Source: Oscillospiraceae bacterium
GTDB lineage: Bacteria > Bacillota > Clostridia > Oscillospirales > CAG-382
Direction: 5' to 3'
Assembly: GCA_015065225.1 (NCBI GenBank)
Contig: SVQR01000003.1
Span: 1-52,330, forward strand
DNA length: 52,330 nt
In this document: in pieces, positions 17,765 through 38,399 of the stretch
Layout: the number at the start of each line of letters is the position of its first letter
How positions within the stretch are numbered: the stretch's first letter is position 1
Notes under the pieces: model-generated
Seen by the model: only the letters and a program-made list of their open reading frames with translations
Databases searched by the model: none
What the model was told of the DNA's origin: nothing
Made by a program: the position numbers and the translations under genes

Positions 17765-19441
17765 ATGAAAAAATTCGATATGCACATACATACCTACGAG
17801 CAGCACCCTGATCCCGAAAAGTTTGTTGCAGAGCTTGAAAAGTCGGGATTCTACGGCGGATGTATATTTTCTTCCCCCTCGGATGTTCCGGAAATAAGTC
17901 ACGGCATAAGCTTTGAGGCTCGTCTTGACGAGCTTGACAGATGGACAAAGGGCTACGAGGGCAGACTTTTCCCTGTAATATGGATGCATCCCACAGAGGA
18001 AAATGCGATAGAAAAAGTAAAGATAGCCGTTGACAGAGGTGTTGCGGGCTTTAAGTTTATCCTTCATGACATTTATGCAGGTGACGAAAGATGCCTTGCA
18101 CTCTTCCGTGAGATTGCAAAATACGATAAGCCGATATTCTTCCATTCCGGAATACTCTGGTCATCCATACCGGATGAGGTCTCAAAGTACAACCGTCCCG
18201 TAAACTGGGAGGCTATGCTGAAAGTGCCGGGACTTCGTTTCTCTCTCGGACACTGCTCGTGGCCGTGGGTGGATGAGTGTATTGCTCTTTACGGGCGACT
18301 CAACGATGCAAAGAAGCTGTTCAAAGATGGCGAAAAGCCCTGCGAGATGTTCTTTGATCTGACACCGGGAACACCCGACAATTATCGTGAAGAGCTCTTT
18401 ACAAAGCTTGTCGAGGTTGATATGGACAACGTAAACAATATCATGTTCGGCTGTGACCAGTGGGCGGAAAGGTACAAATCCGCAAGACTCGACCACATAT
18501 ATGAGATGGACAGAAAGATACTTGACAAGCTCGGCGTAAGTGTCGAAGTAAGAAAAAGGATATATCACGACAACCTCATGCGCTTTCTCGGTATCAATAA
18601 AGAAGTTCCGGAAAGGATTCCCTTTGTCAACAAAAAAGGCGTTGCCGATATCTGCCGCAAATGGTACAAAAAGCTGGAATTTCCGATGGAGTACGACAAC
18701 GATTTCGAGCTTCTCCTGAAGGAGTACAACATTTCGGATGCGATCACAGCGGACAAGTACGACTACAGCGAAAAGGACGGCAAGCGAAACCTTCTCTCAA
18801 TGCTCTTTATGTGCGAGGAGCTTGAAGAAAAGTACAGGGAAAAGGGCATAGACGAAAAGATACTCATTGACACCGCTAAGGACATAGTCCTCTGGACAAA
18901 CTCCTGGACAAACGTCAAAGGCGAGCTGTGTCTTTATGAGCTTCCCTGGCTGTCCTTCCATATGCAGATGAAGCTGTTCAGAATAGGAAGCCTTGAATTT
19001 GTGGCATCAAACACCGAATACAGTTGTCCGGAGCTTGGACTTTCAAAGGGCGATCCGATAGTCGAGATACATATTCCGGAGGGAGCGGATATGCGTCCCG
19101 AAAAGGTGGAAGAGTCGATAAATGCGGCAAAGGAATTCTTTGCGAAGTATTATCCTGAACACAAATATGAGCACTTCACGTTCCACTCATGGATAATGGA
19201 CAAGGAGCTTGCAAAACTTCTTAAGCCGGAAAGCAATATCCTTAAATTCCAGAATTCCTTCACAAGAATAGAATCGGAGATCACAGAGGATTATGCGGCT
19301 CTTCGATATGTATTCGGATGGGACACCACAAGAATGAATCTCCGCAGTCGCTATGCTTCCTCGAGCTTTGCGGAAAACATGAAAAAGCACGTTCTCAGCG
19401 GTGGAAAGCTGCATCTCGGCGTTGGTGTGAGAAAAAAATAA
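17765..19441 (+). CDS. Amidohydrolase_2-like domain fused to a C-terminal GNAT_C-like acyltransferase module (DUF5596/NAT_N-GNAT_C type)
   Basis: N-terminus DMHIHTYEQ, FHSG, GHCSWPW, FGCDQW; C-terminal half KGDPIVEIHIPEGADMRPEKVEESINAAKEFFAKYYPEHKYEHFTFHSWIMDKELAKLLKPESNILKFQNSF resembles acyltransferase-domain proteins. Confidence 0.7.
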   Translation: MKKFDMHIHTYEQHPDPEKFVAELEKSGFYGGCIFSSPSDVPEISHGISFEARLDELDRWTKGYEGRLFPVIWMHPTEENAIEKVKIAVDRGVAGFKFILHDIYAGDERCLALFREIAKYDKPIFFHSGILWSSIPDEVSKYNRPVNWEAMLKVPGLRFSLGHCSWPWVDECIALYGRLNDAKKLFKDGEKPCEMFFDLTPGTPDNYREELFTKLVEVDMDNVNNIMFGCDQWAERYKSARLDHIYEMDRKILDKLGVSVEVRKRIYHDNLMRFLGINKEVPERIPFVNKKGVADICRKWYKKLEFPMEYDNDFELLLKEYNISDAITADKYDYSEKDGKRNLLSMLFMCEELEEKYREKGIDEKILIDTAKDIVLWTNSWTNVKGELCLYELPWLSFHMQMKLFRIGSLEFVASNTEYSCPELGLSKGDPIVEIHIPEGADMRPEKVEESINAAKEFFAKYYPEHKYEHFTFHSWIMDKELAKLLKPESNILKFQNSFTRIESEITEDYAALRYVFGWDTTRMNLRSRYASSSFAENMKKHVLSGGKLHLGVGVRKK

Positions 19442-19463
19442 TTTGTTCCGAAAGGATGGAGAA

Positions 19464-20591
19464 ATGACAGTAAGAAGATGCCGTTTGTCGGCGTTTTTGT
19501 CGGCAGTGATATTATTGATATATACCTTTGCGGTATTTGCCGTAAAGGCAGGGGATACCTCGACAGTACCCGGATATAAGCTCGTAAATACCTATGATGA
19601 GACAAAGGGGATTGTGACATCCGAGGTATACCTTACGGATGGGCTGGGACTTGTAGGACAGTTCGGACTATGCTACAATACGGAGCTTGTTACCCTTGCG
19701 GTGCCATTGACGGATGGCAGGATAATAACCGAATACGAGGAGCAGATGGCTTCGGGAAAACTGAAGATAACCCATTTTGTCACAGCAGACAACAAGTGCG
19801 TCATAACGAACGAGACCAATAAGCTGCACGATCTTATAAATGAAGAAACCGGCGAATTTTTCCTTGCATGGTATGCACCAAGCTCGTTAAAACTTGATGC
19901 TACAAGTGAGGACAAAAAGATAGCGACAGTGACATTCAAGGTCAATGACGGAGTTACTGCACAGGATATCGAGAGGGCGGGAAATGATGTTATAAGATTC
20001 TCCTCCCATACGCCTTCGGATACCAATGTTGTTGGTTACAGCTCGGGAGCTTACTGCGCAAATGAGGATAACACGCCTGTCAGAAACAATGGCAGAACAA
20101 AGTACTCCATAACACTTCTTACGGAATATGTGGGACTTTCCATTCCCGGTGGCTTTGATATTACTTTGAAGGAAAACGATAATGGCATAACCATCCCCGC
20201 AACACACGGAACATCAAATCGTATAATGCCTGTACCGCTGAATACACAAAGCTCGGAGATAAGATCTGTTTTGACTCTTCCGCTGAATATGGCGGCAGTT
20301 ATACAGACACGGGATGGTGAGGTATCACCGGAAATTGTAAAAACCGGCGACACAATAACTCTGACCAAGGGAAACATGAAGGAAACGATCGTCATCGCCG
20401 CAAAGAGTGACACGGACGGAGACGGAAATGTGACTATGGCAGATCTTAATACAATGATGCGCGTAATATCCGGTGATTTGGAGAATGCTCCGGAGGAAGC
20501 CTTGTACACTGTTGACACAAACGGTGACCGGGTGCTTTCCGATGAAGAATACGGTGGATTTATTGCGGATATCATTGAAAGCAATAAGTGA
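19464..20591 (+). CDS. Secreted protein with cohesin-like beta domain and C-terminal dockerin-type EF-hand repeat
   Basis: Signal/TM segment RRCRLSAFLSAVILLIYTFAVFAVKAG; DTDGDGNVTMADLNTMMRVISG ... VDTNGDRVLSDEEYGGFIADII (20409-20588). Confidence 0.75.
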   Translation: MTVRRCRLSAFLSAVILLIYTFAVFAVKAGDTSTVPGYKLVNTYDETKGIVTSEVYLTDGLGLVGQFGLCYNTELVTLAVPLTDGRIITEYEEQMASGKLKITHFVTADNKCVITNETNKLHDLINEETGEFFLAWYAPSSLKLDATSEDKKIATVTFKVNDGVTAQDIERAGNDVIRFSSHTPSDTNVVGYSSGAYCANEDNTPVRNNGRTKYSITLLTEYVGLSIPGGFDITLKENDNGITIPATHGTSNRIMPVPLNTQSSEIRSVLTLPLNMAAVIQTRDGEVSPEIVKTGDTITLTKGNMKETIVIAAKSDTDGDGNVTMADLNTMMRVISGDLENAPEEALYTVDTNGDRVLSDEEYGGFIADIIESNK

Positions 20592-20637: not shown

Positions 20638-20665
20638 TTTACAAAACGCAAAAAAATGATATAAT
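20638..20665 (+). promoter_or_regulatory. Promoter of the sialidase-AraC fusion gene
   Basis: TTTACA - 16 bp - TATAAT; starts just after the preceding terminator. Confidence 0.6.
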
Positions 20666-20721
20666 TCCGAAAAAATGTATGATAGTATAAATTTATAGAA
20701 TCCCCCAAAGGAGAAACTACC

Positions 20722-22401
20722 ATGCTGATAACAGATAAGGAAATACTCAAAAAATATACTGCCGAAAACCGCATATGGCAGGGAATATCAAGTATTGAAG
20801 TAACAAAAAAAGGCAGAATATTCGTCACTTTCTATTCCGGTTACATAAAGGAGCATTTCGGAAACTATGTTCTTCTTATAAAATCGGATGATGACGGAAA
20901 GACATTCTCCGATCCCATCGCCGTTGCATATAAGGACGAGAATCACAGATGCTATGATCCTGTTTTGTGGATAGATCCTCTCGGAAGACTTTGGTTTATC
21001 TGGGCTCTGCTTCCCGCAAACGGTGTTTATGCTTCGGTTTGTGACGATCCGGATGCGGATGAACTCGTATGGTCAACGCCACGGAAAATAGGAAACGATG
21101 TTATGATGTGCAGACCTACCGTTCTTTCGACAGGGGAATGGCTGTTCCCGATAGCCGTGTGGAGAAGGGGACTTGTACCTCACATCTGGCCGGAAACAAG
21201 AATACCCGATTGTGAGACAGGTGCATTCGTATACAAGACCACAGATAACGGAGAGACCTTTACAAAACTCGGAGGCGCAAGGGTAGAGGGCAGAAGCTTT
21301 GATGAACACATGACTCTGGAGCTTCCAGACGGAAGACTGAGGCTCTTTGCCCGTACAGGCTACGGTATAGGTGCATCCGATTCCTACGACAGAGGAAAGA
21401 CCTGGGGAGCATCTTTCAACACAGGTTACGGCGGACCTTGCTCGAGATTCCATATAACAAGGCTTTCTTCCGGTAGGCTTCTTCTTATCAATCACTATAA
21501 TTACACCTCCAGAAACAATCTTTATGCGATGCTCTCGGAGGATGAGGGCAAGACCTGGAAGTACAAGCTGCTTCTTGACGAACGAAATGAAGTGTCCTAT
21601 CCGGATGCTGTTGAGCGCAACGGTTATATCTACATAACCTACGACAGAGAGCGCGGAGGCTTTATGGGATCCTTTGCGGCGGCGTACAGTAAAGCCCGTG
21701 AGATTCTTGTGGCAAAGATAACCGAGGATGATATTATCGAGGGTACGCTTAAAAGTGACGGTTACCTTAAATGTGTTGCCTCAAAGCTCGGAAGATATTG
21801 CCGTGACGATGTGGAAAATCCCTATATGTTCCTTCCGCAGTATGATACGGTGGGAGCTGTAAAACAGATAATGAATGACCATCCGAGAGAGAAGTATATC
21901 TCCGTGATATTCGATGCTTTCTCCGTGAACTGCACCAATATGCACAAGCTTGACTGCGAAAAGCTTGATGCACTCATTACCCGCTTTGACGAGCATGACG
22001 GCTATGACGACGAGATACTTGAAGAAATAATCGTTCTTGTAAAAAATGTCACGGAAAGCAAGACACAGTCCGTGCCCGTTATCGACAGGATAAAGTCTGT
22101 CATTGAGGAAAACCTTGAAGCCGACATATCTGTTGCGGATGTTGCGAAAAAGATAGGCATGAGCAAGTTCTATATGTCCCACATTTTCAAAAAAGCGACA
22201 GCAATAACCGTTGTTGATTACAAGAACGAGCTCAAGCTCACAAAGGCAAAGAAATTGCTTGTTACCACAGATGACAGCATAACGGACATCGCATACTCCT
22301 GCGGATTCGGCTCTGCCAGCTATTTTACCGAACGGTTTACAAAGGCGGAAGGGATACAGCCGGGCAAATACAGAGTGCTTAACAAGAAAGATAAAAGATA
22401 A
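20722..22401 (+). CDS. Fusion protein: N-terminal sialidase-like Asp-box propeller + C-terminal AraC-type double HTH
   Basis: Four Asp-boxes (SDDDGKTF, TTDNGETF, SYDRGKTW, SEDEGKTW) and YIYITYDRERGG; C-terminal ISVADVAKKIGMSKFYMSHIFKKATAITVVDYKNELKLTKAKKLLVTTDDSITDIAYSCGFGSASYFTERFTKAEGIQPGKYR; single uninterrupted frame, RBS aaaggag. Confidence 0.93.
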   Translation: MLITDKEILKKYTAENRIWQGISSIEVTKKGRIFVTFYSGYIKEHFGNYVLLIKSDDDGKTFSDPIAVAYKDENHRCYDPVLWIDPLGRLWFIWALLPANGVYASVCDDPDADELVWSTPRKIGNDVMMCRPTVLSTGEWLFPIAVWRRGLVPHIWPETRIPDCETGAFVYKTTDNGETFTKLGGARVEGRSFDEHMTLELPDGRLRLFARTGYGIGASDSYDRGKTWGASFNTGYGGPCSRFHITRLSSGRLLLINHYNYTSRNNLYAMLSEDEGKTWKYKLLLDERNEVSYPDAVERNGYIYITYDRERGGFMGSFAAAYSKAREILVAKITEDDIIEGTLKSDGYLKCVASKLGRYCRDDVENPYMFLPQYDTVGAVKQIMNDHPREKYISVIFDAFSVNCTNMHKLDCEKLDALITRFDEHDGYDDEILEEIIVLVKNVTESKTQSVPVIDRIKSVIEENLEADISVADVAKKIGMSKFYMSHIFKKATAITVVDYKNELKLTKAKKLLVTTDDSITDIAYSCGFGSASYFTERFTKAEGIQPGKYRVLNKKDKR

Positions 22402-22454: not shown

Positions 22455-22488
22455 TCAATACAGTAATTGGTATGTCATCCCGACGGTT

Positions 22489-23079
22489 TTACGGAGCTGT
22501 CGGGTATCTTTTTTTGTCTTCTTCGGTAATAGCTCTCATTACCTTGCAAGGAACACCGCAGGCAACCACATTCGATGGTATATCCTTTGTTACAACACTG
22601 CCGGCACCGATGACTGCGTTGTCGCCGATTGTAACACCGCCGAGAACGATAACGCCCGCACCGAACCATACATTGTTTCCGACAGTTATGGGAAGAGCAA
22701 CTTCAAGTCCCGCATTCCGTTGCCCGGCATCTATAGCGTGTTCCGCAGTGGTAAATACACAGTTTGGTGCGATAAACACATGATCGCCGAAGGTTACGGC
22801 ACATCCGTCGAGTATCTGACAGTTGCGGTTGGCGAAGAAATAGTCTCCCACATAGACATTATATCCGTAATCGCAGTAGAAAGGGGAGACCACATTGATG
22901 TCCTTTCCCGCCTTGCCGAGTATTTTTCCGAGTAGCTCTGTTCTTTTTTGAGAATCTCTGTGGCTTGTCATGTTGAGTTCACTGCAAAGATCCCAGCAAT
23001 GTGCTATTTCGGACAGGAGCTCCTTGTCGTAGTTTGCATCGTATAAAAAGCCTTTGGCTCGCTTTTCTTTTTCTGTCAT
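22489..23079 (-). CDS. Maltose/galactoside O-acetyltransferase-like LbH protein
   Basis: MTEKEKRAKGFLYDANYDKELL N-terminus, hexapeptide repeats, FGAGVIVLGGVTIGDNAVIGAGSVVTKDIP. Confidence 0.93.
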   Translation of the reverse strand: MTEKEKRAKGFLYDANYDKELLSEIAHCWDLCSELNMTSHRDSQKRTELLGKILGKAGKDINVVSPFYCDYGYNVYVGDYFFANRNCQILDGCAVTFGDHVFIAPNCVFTTAEHAIDAGQRNAGLEVALPITVGNNVWFGAGVIVLGGVTIGDNAVIGAGSVVTKDIPSNVVACGVPCKVMRAITEEDKKRYPTAP

Positions 23080-35576: not shown

Positions 35577-37838
35577 TTATACCATAGCCTCGGCACGCAT
35601 AATATACACATCCTGCTCGGACTTGGGAAGATTGTTCCACAACACGTTCCAACCGCAGACACGCACCTGAAGTGTCCTGTATTTTTCGGGATACTTCTGT
35701 GCTTCTCTCAGTGTATCAACATTGAATACATTCACATGAATGGATGCTCCGCCCTGCTTTACATAGGTCATGAGAATACCGTAGAACGCTTCAAGTCCGT
35801 CATCACCGCTTACCGCAGAAGGATGAAGCATGGCATCAAGACAGCCGCCGGCATCGTTCAGGGACATATCCATGCTCGTTACGGAATTTATTGCCGCCGT
35901 GATACCTTTTCTGTCGGCACCCGGTACGGGAGATACATTCTTGGACATCTCTTCGCCCGCACGTCTTCCGTCGGGGGTCGCTTCAATACGTTTTCCCTGC
36001 TCGATAAACGCCCTTGCCGAGTGTAGCTCGTAGCCGTATGTTCCGCCGTGAGCATTACGTCTCCCCGCAAGATCTGCGGCGTAGAATTTGTGGAATGCAT
36101 CCGCGTATGCATCTGCGATCCTGTCGTTGTTCCCGAATTTATGCTTACAATTAAGAGCCTTTGCACGGAGCTTTTCATAGCCCTCCCAGTTTGCATCGAG
36201 TGCTTTCAGTAATTCATCCATCGTACAGACTTTTCTTTCATATACAAGCTCATACACCGCCATTGTAGCATCCACAAGACTTGCAAAGCCGCAGAAAAGC
36301 GTTCCCGTTCTGTTGGTGACTCCTCCGTCTATTGCATCCGTGAGATTTTCTGCACATTCAGCAAGTGTTCCGGAGAACAGTACCGACGGATTTACTTCTC
36401 CGACGTGTCTTTCCGCTTCGTAATTATAAGTGAAGCAGGTCTCGTTTATATGTCCGAGCTGTGCTCTTACAGCATTGTAGAACTTATCGAAAGTATCAAA
36501 GCTTCTCGGATCGCCGGTTTTAAGTCCGAGTTGTTTGCCGGTTGTCTTATCAAGACCGTTTGAAAGAGCAAAGCATACGGCTTTAAGTCCGTCGATATAG
36601 ATCGAAGATATGTCGATACCGCCTCGCTTTGACTTGTATTCGTAGCATCCGGATATCACCGAATCACAGGCTTCCTCGTAGGTTATGCCTCTTGACATAA
36701 GTGCCTTTGTGATAATGTCTTCATTTACAAATACGATACTGTTGACACCGTTCCTTACCATATCAAGAGCTTTCATAACGATATCCTTAGGTGTCCTGTC
36801 GCATACCTTGAACTGTATCTTCGGGTTGTATATGCCCATCTGATAATATACGTCAAGTATCATGTGAGTAAGCTCATTGACTTTTGTCGTTCCGTCGGCA
36901 TTTGTACCCGCAAGATAGAAGGGTTGTCCCCAGTAGTTTTCTATGCAGGAGAACTGCTGAAGGAAATATGCGATAAACTCCGCTATCTCGTCTTTTGTGT
37001 ATCTTCCCGATTCTATATCCTTTTTATAGAATGGATAGAGCGATGCATCAAGACCGTAGCCCAGAGAACGCACCTGATAGTGGTCTACGCTCTCGCTTAT
37101 CATGAAGTAGAGGTACATCATATGAAGTGCATCGTAAGTATCCTGCGCACCGCCGTCGCGTAAATGCTCAAGGCTTGCCTTTGTCGCCGTTGACTTTGCG
37201 TTAGCCTTTGTGTCGGCGTACTTTACAAATCTTTCCATGATACGCAAGATCGCTGTGTACTCTATTTCAAGAGCCGTGAAGAAGATCTCCTGCTTTTCCG
37301 TAAGAGTGCCGTCAGCCTTCTTGCTCTCATATGATCTTCGTGCTCTCTCAAGTATGCCGCTCCAGCCGAGATCAAGAAGTGAGTCCCAATCGGGAACGGT
37401 GTGGTCAAAATCAAGCCACGTCCATGCTGTACCGGATGCCCAGAAGTCGTCAAGCACCTGCTTTTTTTCTCCGACATATTTTGCGTAGCACTGCGCACTC
37501 CATTTATTTATGACCTTTTTTATTACTCTGCCCCAGGTATAGATACCGACAAAGTAGTCATGCTCGTTGACATCAATTCTTGTGTTGTCGAGAACATATT
37601 CGACAAGTCTTGCCTTTAGTATCTGGTTGTTGTAATCGGGAGTGTTGCCGAACTCTGCGACAATTTTGTCTATTCCCGCAATTATCTCTTCATCGGTAAG
37701 TCCCGTTGAGCTGTCGTATTCGTAACCGTGATAGTCGAAACGGGCAAAGGGGTTGTAGTTCTCGTCTTGCCTGTGATATTTGTTGAGAAGATATTCCATA
37801 TCCCCGTCAAGTGTTTTGAAACAGTATTTTTCGTGCAT
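35577..37838 (-). CDS. Glycyl radical enzyme (pyruvate formate-lyase-like family), substrate unknown
   Basis: Active-site SGCYEYK (Cys-Tyr-Glu at 36639-36647) and C-terminal glycyl loop VRVCGWNVLWNNL (Gly at 35652-35654); start moved to MHEKYCF at 37838 behind CGAAAGGAGC. Confidence 0.88.
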   Translation of the reverse strand: MHEKYCFKTLDGDMEYLLNKYHRQDENYNPFARFDYHGYEYDSSTGLTDEEIIAGIDKIVAEFGNTPDYNNQILKARLVEYVLDNTRIDVNEHDYFVGIYTWGRVIKKVINKWSAQCYAKYVGEKKQVLDDFWASGTAWTWLDFDHTVPDWDSLLDLGWSGILERARRSYESKKADGTLTEKQEIFFTALEIEYTAILRIMERFVKYADTKANAKSTATKASLEHLRDGGAQDTYDALHMMYLYFMISESVDHYQVRSLGYGLDASLYPFYKKDIESGRYTKDEIAEFIAYFLQQFSCIENYWGQPFYLAGTNADGTTKVNELTHMILDVYYQMGIYNPKIQFKVCDRTPKDIVMKALDMVRNGVNSIVFVNEDIITKALMSRGITYEEACDSVISGCYEYKSKRGGIDISSIYIDGLKAVCFALSNGLDKTTGKQLGLKTGDPRSFDTFDKFYNAVRAQLGHINETCFTYNYEAERHVGEVNPSVLFSGTLAECAENLTDAIDGGVTNRTGTLFCGFASLVDATMAVYELVYERKVCTMDELLKALDANWEGYEKLRAKALNCKHKFGNNDRIADAYADAFHKFYAADLAGRRNAHGGTYGYELHSARAFIEQGKRIEATPDGRRAGEEMSKNVSPVPGADRKGITAAINSVTSMDMSLNDAGGCLDAMLHPSAVSGDDGLEAFYGILMTYVKQGGASIHVNVFNVDTLREAQKYPEKYRTLQVRVCGWNVLWNNLPKSEQDVYIMRAEAMV

Positions 37839-37878
37839 GATGATGCTCCTTTCGGTGCGGTGATTATCTGTTACGTTC

Positions 37879-37907
37879 ATTAAAGCACACAAAGGAGGTT
37901 TTGTCAA
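37879..37907 (-). promoter_or_regulatory. Promoter of the glycyl radical enzyme gene
   Basis: Minus strand TTGACA - 17 bp - TTTAAT. Confidence 0.65.
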
Positions 37908-37976
37908 CAGCCTGAGCGACGGTTTTGTGTTGAAAAGTACAAATTGCACAAAAAATCCCCATAAAGAAAAAAGAAT

Positions 37977-38003
37977 GGCGCAGGCATCAAAAGACACCGC
38001 GCC
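37977..38003 (-). terminator. Hairpin terminator after the HTH-only gene
   Basis: GGCGC...GCGCC with minus-strand T-run (attcttttttc). Confidence 0.55.
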
Positions 38004-38399
38004 CTACTGTATTATTACGTTTTCTTGTATCTTTTTTTCCGATCTGTACCTTGTCGGAGACATACCACATACCTTTAAAAAACGTTCCGAAAAGTACCCC
38101 TGACTTGAGAATCCGCAATCATATGCAATGGATGTGATATTTTTATCCGTTTCGCGAAGTTCTTTTTTTGCTTTGTTGATACGCAGGAGCGTTCTGTACT
38201 CCACAACGGTCATCCCCGTGGTGTTCTTAAAAATATGAGACATATAAAAAACGCTTATTCCGACTCTTTTTGAAATTTCGGGAAGGGACATATTCGATTC
38301 GAGATTTTGTTCTATAAGATTCTTGATCCTGTCAACTACCGGGGAACTCATCATTTCACCGTCCTTGTGGTTGCTTACAGGGTTATTATAATCAACCAT
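38004..38399 (-). CDS. AraC-type HTH-only protein (131 aa, no sensor domain)
   Basis: MSLPEISKRVGISVFYMSHIFKNTTGMTVVEYRTLLRINKAKKELRETDKNITSIAYDCGFSSQGYFSERFLKVCGMSPTRYR. Confidence 0.9.
   Translation of the reverse strand: MVDYNNPVSNHKDGEMMSSPVVDRIKNLIEQNLESNMSLPEISKRVGISVFYMSHIFKNTTGMTVVEYRTLLRINKAKKELRETDKNITSIAYDCGFSSQGYFSERFLKVCGMSPTRYRSEKKIQENVIIQ

Follow-up and report, generated by a model that had tools for sequence, protein, structure and literature searches.

A sialidase-fold propeller joined to an AraC-type DNA-binding domain in Clostridia: a candidate ligand-gated one-component regulator

The usual sensor of AraC-type regulators is a cupin domain, as in AraC, MelR and RhaS, and other members of the family carry an amidotransferase-like domain (FtrA and GbdR), a methyltransferase (Ada) or a periplasmic-binding-protein-like domain (XylR). 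We know of no AraC regulator with a glycosidase-fold sensor. A search of the full-text literature, which covered few subscription papers, returned no earlier description of an AraC-sialidase fusion, and a survey of Asp-box propellers mentions neither AraC nor helix-turn-helix (HTH) domains (PMC2716378). A review of gut sialidases lists the active site that these enzymes share, composed of a Glu-Tyr relay, an Asp acid/base and a trio of arginines (PMC4747158).

The gene described here lies in the window, the whole 52,330-nucleotide stretch of an Oscillospiraceae genome (G000) that was analysed. An earlier interpretation made from the letters alone, the sequence-only reading, had seen one uninterrupted 559-codon frame, and this was borne out: positions 20722-22401 form a single ATG-initiated frame with the following features.

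20638..20665, + strand: putative extended -10 sigma-70-like promoter, 11/12 matches to the consensus
20707..20713, + strand: ribosome-binding site AAAGGAG, read from the sequence
20722..22401, + strand: whole gene, encoding a sialidase-superfamily propeller, a helical linker and an AraC HTH in 559 aa (frame, Pfam and fused relatives)
20722..21756, + strand: BNR_2/sialidase-fold propeller, residues 1-345 (PF13088, E = 2.9e-22; AF2 model)
20884..20907, + strand: Asp box 1, SDDDGKTF, residues 55-62
21238..21261, + strand: Asp box 2, TTDNGETF, residues 173-180
21382..21405, + strand: Asp box 3, SYDRGKTW, residues 221-228
21535..21558, + strand: Asp box 4, SEDEGKTW, residues 272-279
21757..22068, + strand: helical linker domain, residues 346-449 (its last ~70 residues accompany the HTH in both fusion types)
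22069..22389, + strand: AraC-type double HTH, residues 450-556 (HTH_18 and HTH_AraC)
22479..22504, + strand: intrinsic terminator-like hairpin 3' of the fused gene

The promoter call is a consensus match only, from a scan that gave 5 sites in the region versus 3.9 expected. The fused gene looks monocistronic, since it has a separate promoter-like site and a good ribosome site and is followed by a terminator-like hairpin; an additional product from an internal start is possible. The gene directly upstream (19443-20591) encodes a protein that is putatively secreted and weakly matches cohesin and dockerin/EF-hand. A single frame at 17765-19441, of which G032 has an orthologue, fuses an Amidohydrolase domain to NAT_N/GNAT_C acyltransferase domains.

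The BNR_2 match in the 559-residue protein spans residues 65-305, and residues 1-345 gave BNR_2-type Pfam matches only, with no cupin or AraC_binding domain. The AF2 model of the propeller (pLDDT 71 and pTM 0.79 from a two-sequence input; pLDDT 60 for the whole protein from such an input) matched best the orphan protein Dfer_1899 (PDB 5hx0, TM 0.66) and then GH33 sialidases (TM about 0.6). Pfam and the model fold thus both identify a sialidase-type Asp-box propeller. The four Asp boxes and a YIYITYDRERGG segment are present as the sequence-only reading had listed them, while the propeller, which it confined to the first ~330 residues, ends near residue 345. At the C-terminus, HTH_18 (PF12833, E = 2.3e-20) covers residues 475-551 and HTH_AraC (PF00165, E = 5.9e-14) two stretches, and both NCBIfam, with many AraC-type matches, and the PDB search agree. 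The double HTH, formerly placed at 22084-22398, is indeed complete, with its boundaries moved to about residues 450-556 (22069-22389). The protein therefore possesses the DNA-binding domain of about 100 residues that characterizes the AraC/XylS family, and belongs to the AraC family by virtue of it.

The segment between the two domains had been described as about 110 residues of uncharacterised linker. Pfam and PDB profile searches with it returned only chance-level or designed-helix matches, and its identification with a known domain was rejected for want of a credible relative. The linker is predicted to be helical, and the ~70 residues before the HTH show a pattern, VFDYYPxNCxNMxxLDxxKLDEL, common to fusions with the propeller at the N-terminal (N-type) or C-terminal (C-type) end; the same residues form the N-terminus of sister proteins without the window-type propeller. 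Given this recurrence, the linker acts like a regulator domain and not like a spacer or inert connector. No hydrophobic stretch was found at the N-terminus of the fused protein (maximum 15-residue Kyte-Doolittle mean of 0.39, whereas a secreted BNR protein from this genome reaches 2.23). As no signal peptide is visible, the protein looks genuinely cytoplasmic, as had been proposed for its propeller.

Full-length fused relatives, 45-79% identical to the window protein, were found in eight other genomes. G032 (79%), G055, G051, G048 and G050 are from the window genome's own family, G150 and G078 from two other families, and the last is an Oscillospiraceae MAG, SIG672 (locus L009). The nine genomes represent three families of one Clostridia order. 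The flanks of the two G055 copies are nearly identical, and a single locus may have been assembled twice there. As no further fused form was present, beyond the window's own, in 399 genomes sampled over the phylum, the fusion is, within this sampling, confined to that order; a search for plasmid copies returned none. None of the fused relatives has a stop at the junction, and close genomes carry the same single frame and not two separate genes.

The same join occurs in the genomes of at least nine species and in three arrangements, and it is real. In addition to the N-terminal propeller of the window protein (propeller A), a second one, propeller B, follows the linker-HTH unit in four genomes (G000, G078, G195 and G373); the gene of the window's own genome lies on contig C73 (L033:2572-4260) and is a 567-residue linker-HTH-propeller B frame. 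SIG672 combines both in a single 930-residue frame (L009:7989-10781) of propeller A, linker, HTH and propeller B, on a low-coverage MAG contig. Standalone versions of either propeller exist in other genomes of the same order. Propellers A and B, standalone or fused, occur in 17 and 10 of 394 genomes, respectively, and together in 6 (nominal hypergeometric p = 5e-7, relatedness being ignored). A secreted protein of 1665 aa in the window genome also contains a related propeller, together with repeat regions and, by eye, a dockerin-like C-terminal end (G000:C239, L035:13140-18134). The window itself contains another relative.

38004..38399, - strand: HTH-only relative of the fused HTH, 52% identity, without propeller and linker

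In the HTH tree, this gene clusters with the fused HTHs of the window and G032 (support 97/95); it is a derivative of the fused regulator. The same tree joins the G000 C-type gene to SIG672, apart from the other C-types, with moderate supports, and the propeller B tree is compatible with that grouping. Propeller B may accordingly have been joined at least twice, or losses may have followed from an ancient form with two propellers. In the propeller A tree, the standalone forms of G244, G235 and G236 nest among fused ones, indicating that the HTH was lost or gained more than once.

We aligned a profile of 23 propellers, fused and standalone, with the sialidase 7lbu (E = 2.4e-16). The presumed roles of the 7lbu residues follow the pattern of motifs and what is generally known of GH33, not an annotated structure. 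The columns correspond as follows.

20779..20784, + strand: Q20-G21, position of the first triad Arg (FRIP motif), Arg replaced
20851..20853, + strand: E44, aligned with the sialidase acid/base Asp
21304..21306, + strand: E195, aligned with the Glu that activates the Tyr nucleophile
21352..21354, + strand: R211, aligned with the second triad Arg
21511..21513, + strand: R264, aligned with the third triad Arg
21598..21600, + strand: Y293, aligned with the catalytic Tyr

E44, E195, R211, R264 and Y293 are present in all 23 sequences. The equivalents of the Tyr nucleophile and its activating Glu are thus both invariant. Of the residues that the sequence-only reading proposed to look for, the alignment shows the Glu, the second and third arginines and the Tyr, but not the first Arg or the acid/base Asp. 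The column of the first Arg, G21 in the window protein, holds Gly in 20 sequences, Leu in 2, Ser in 1 and Arg in none. The neighboring R17 and Q20 are invariant, and R17, R76 or Q20 might substitute for the missing arginine. The conserved charged residues comprise R17, Q20, E44, N48, D194, E195, R211, R242, R264, Y293, R311 and E327. Propeller B keeps equivalents (E275, E426, R441, R494 and Y532 in its own numbering). As fused and standalone propellers show the same pattern, the changes define an enzyme subfamily rather than decay after fusion. When the window gene is compared with that of G032, a pair with dS near saturation, purifying selection is strongest on the propeller (dN/dS of about 0.04, compared with 0.16 for the linker and about 0.08 for the HTH). 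Both lines of evidence indicate that the pocket has been retained, yet not as that of a canonical sialidase. With the first Arg lost and a Glu at the acid/base position, catalysis and substrate cannot be read off from sialidases, and as two defining GH33 residues are missing we do not file the protein as a GH33 sialidase.

The window is a glycan-use region, with GH31, GH127, arabinofuranosidase-type and GH3 genes, Gfo/Idh/MocA oxidoreductases and several AraC genes. Matches to the query numbered 95 in the G000 genome and were nearly all AraC HTH domains, which for 3.1 Mb is a very large expansion of this family. In the window the fused gene stands alone, without an adjoining aldolase gene; in G150 and in G078 (C-type), a KDPG aldolase and an HpcH/HpaI aldolase gene, respectively, begins about 20-25 bases 3' of it. 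LacI, EamA and Melibiase genes are found near the N-type genes of G048 and G050 and near the C-type gene on G000 contig C73, which also adjoins a cupin AraC gene. G048 and G050 also have a glycyl-radical enzyme gene near the fused gene; in the window, a PFL-like homologue of it (35577-37997) comes after the HTH-only gene, and the pair (35577-38399) has a cupin AraC gene before it. Neighboring genes thus vary from genome to genome. Other BNR_2 paralogs in these genomes adjoin DHDPS-family aldolase genes; there are 11 BNR_2 matches in G000 and 15 in G032, several of them beside such aldolases. Upstream of the fused genes, no conserved operator-like or direct repeats were found.

These surroundings point to the breakdown of sugar acids and glycosides rather than of sialic acid in particular. 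Of the 15 searched genomes with either propeller, only 4 gave a NanE match, several genomes with the fused gene gave none, and no nan genes were seen near the window gene. The sequence-only reading had proposed that the propeller gates DNA binding by directly reading out an imported sialoside or other acidic glycoside. It is supported in part: the fusion of a sialidase fold, found by the BNR_2 profile, to an AraC HTH is genuine and the pocket conserved. Specific sensing of a sialoside lacks support, given G21, E44 and the scarcity of NanE, and was dropped.

With a ligand or catalytic pocket conserved, a one-component regulator or a trigger enzyme is the natural reading. We lean towards a one-component transcription factor whose cytoplasmic propeller is gated by a ligand, is probably catalytically competent and acts through the linker on the AraC HTH. 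The propeller would take the place of the usual cupin sensor and receive an imported glycoside or sugar-acid conjugate in its pocket. Occupancy of the pocket, or turnover through the Tyr/Glu pair, would alter the propeller, the helical linker domain would relay the change to the double HTH, and the latter would control local catabolic genes. Candidate targets are those adjoining the fused gene in several genomes, namely the KDPG or HpcH/HpaI aldolase, the Melibiase-type glycosidase with the EamA transporter, and the glycyl-radical enzyme. Through the fusion, an enzyme probably signals the presence of its own substrate. A more specific proposal, which we regard as tentative and rather doubtful, is that these proteins are a family of trigger glycosidases built from the linker-HTH cassette and two sialidase-like propellers at either end or both, in which the propellers are retaining Tyr-nucleophile enzymes whose turnover or covalent intermediate directly switches the attached AraC domain.

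It may be instead that a catabolic propeller and a regulatory HTH were joined for co-expression, with no signaling between them. The complete retention of catalytic-type residues would fit such a bifunctional protein, and the standalone forms of both propellers, three of them nested among fused ones, show that the parts function apart. We nevertheless find it unlikely, as a conserved linker domain accompanies the HTH in both arrangements, and there would presumably be little use for a catabolic enzyme that a monocistronic gene supplies only at the level of a regulator. Loss of catalysis, leaving a pocket that merely binds a ligand in the manner of the amidotransferase-like domains of FtrA/GbdR-type regulators, would account for the missing first Arg and the Asp-to-Glu change. 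Standalone propellers without a regulatory domain have the same two changes, which marks an enzyme family, and Glu and Tyr are invariant though a pure binder would not need them. Thus, the lost Arg argues against a sialidase and the retained Glu/Tyr pair against a pure binder, a reading that we consider quite improbable. Asp-box propellers can serve as protein-binding scaffolds, and a structural platform for oligomerization or protein docking, with no small-molecule role, is conceivable; the deep conservation of a charged pocket makes it very unlikely. An artefact joining two genes, suggested by the MAG-like draft assemblies of the window and most relatives, is refuted for the fused gene by the same single frame in nine genomes at 45-79% identity.

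If the ligand-gated regulator is correct, it would be a one-component sensor with a glycosidase-type propeller as its sensing domain and most catalytic residues kept. Because the same propeller exists in closely related standalone and fused forms, the change from enzyme to sensor could be tested directly. The fused proteins would also give a handle on the function of the cytoplasmic BNR_2 proteins of gut-type Clostridia, a large and uncharacterised family, as the genes under their control should reveal the substrate.

Among known systems, GH33 sialidases such as the Cutibacterium acnes surface sialidase 7lbu share with the fused protein the propeller fold, the Asp boxes and the aligned Glu, second and third arginines and Tyr, whereas the fused protein lacks the FRIP Arg, has Glu for the acid/base Asp, is apparently cytoplasmic and carries a DNA-binding domain. 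Dfer_1899, the closest solved fold, is 364-365 residues long and has no HTH. AraC, MelR and RhaS have the C-terminal double HTH and a likely role in carbohydrate catabolism in common with the fused protein, whose sensor is a sialidase-fold propeller instead of a cupin. By analogy, the protein may work like the enzyme-fold AraC regulators (FtrA/GbdR type and Ada) or XylR, whose HTHs were matched in the NCBIfam and PDB searches and in which an unrelated fold, once an enzyme or a binding protein, gates an AraC HTH, as we infer here. It differs from them in that its family keeps catalytic-type residues and can have a propeller on either side of the HTH or on both.
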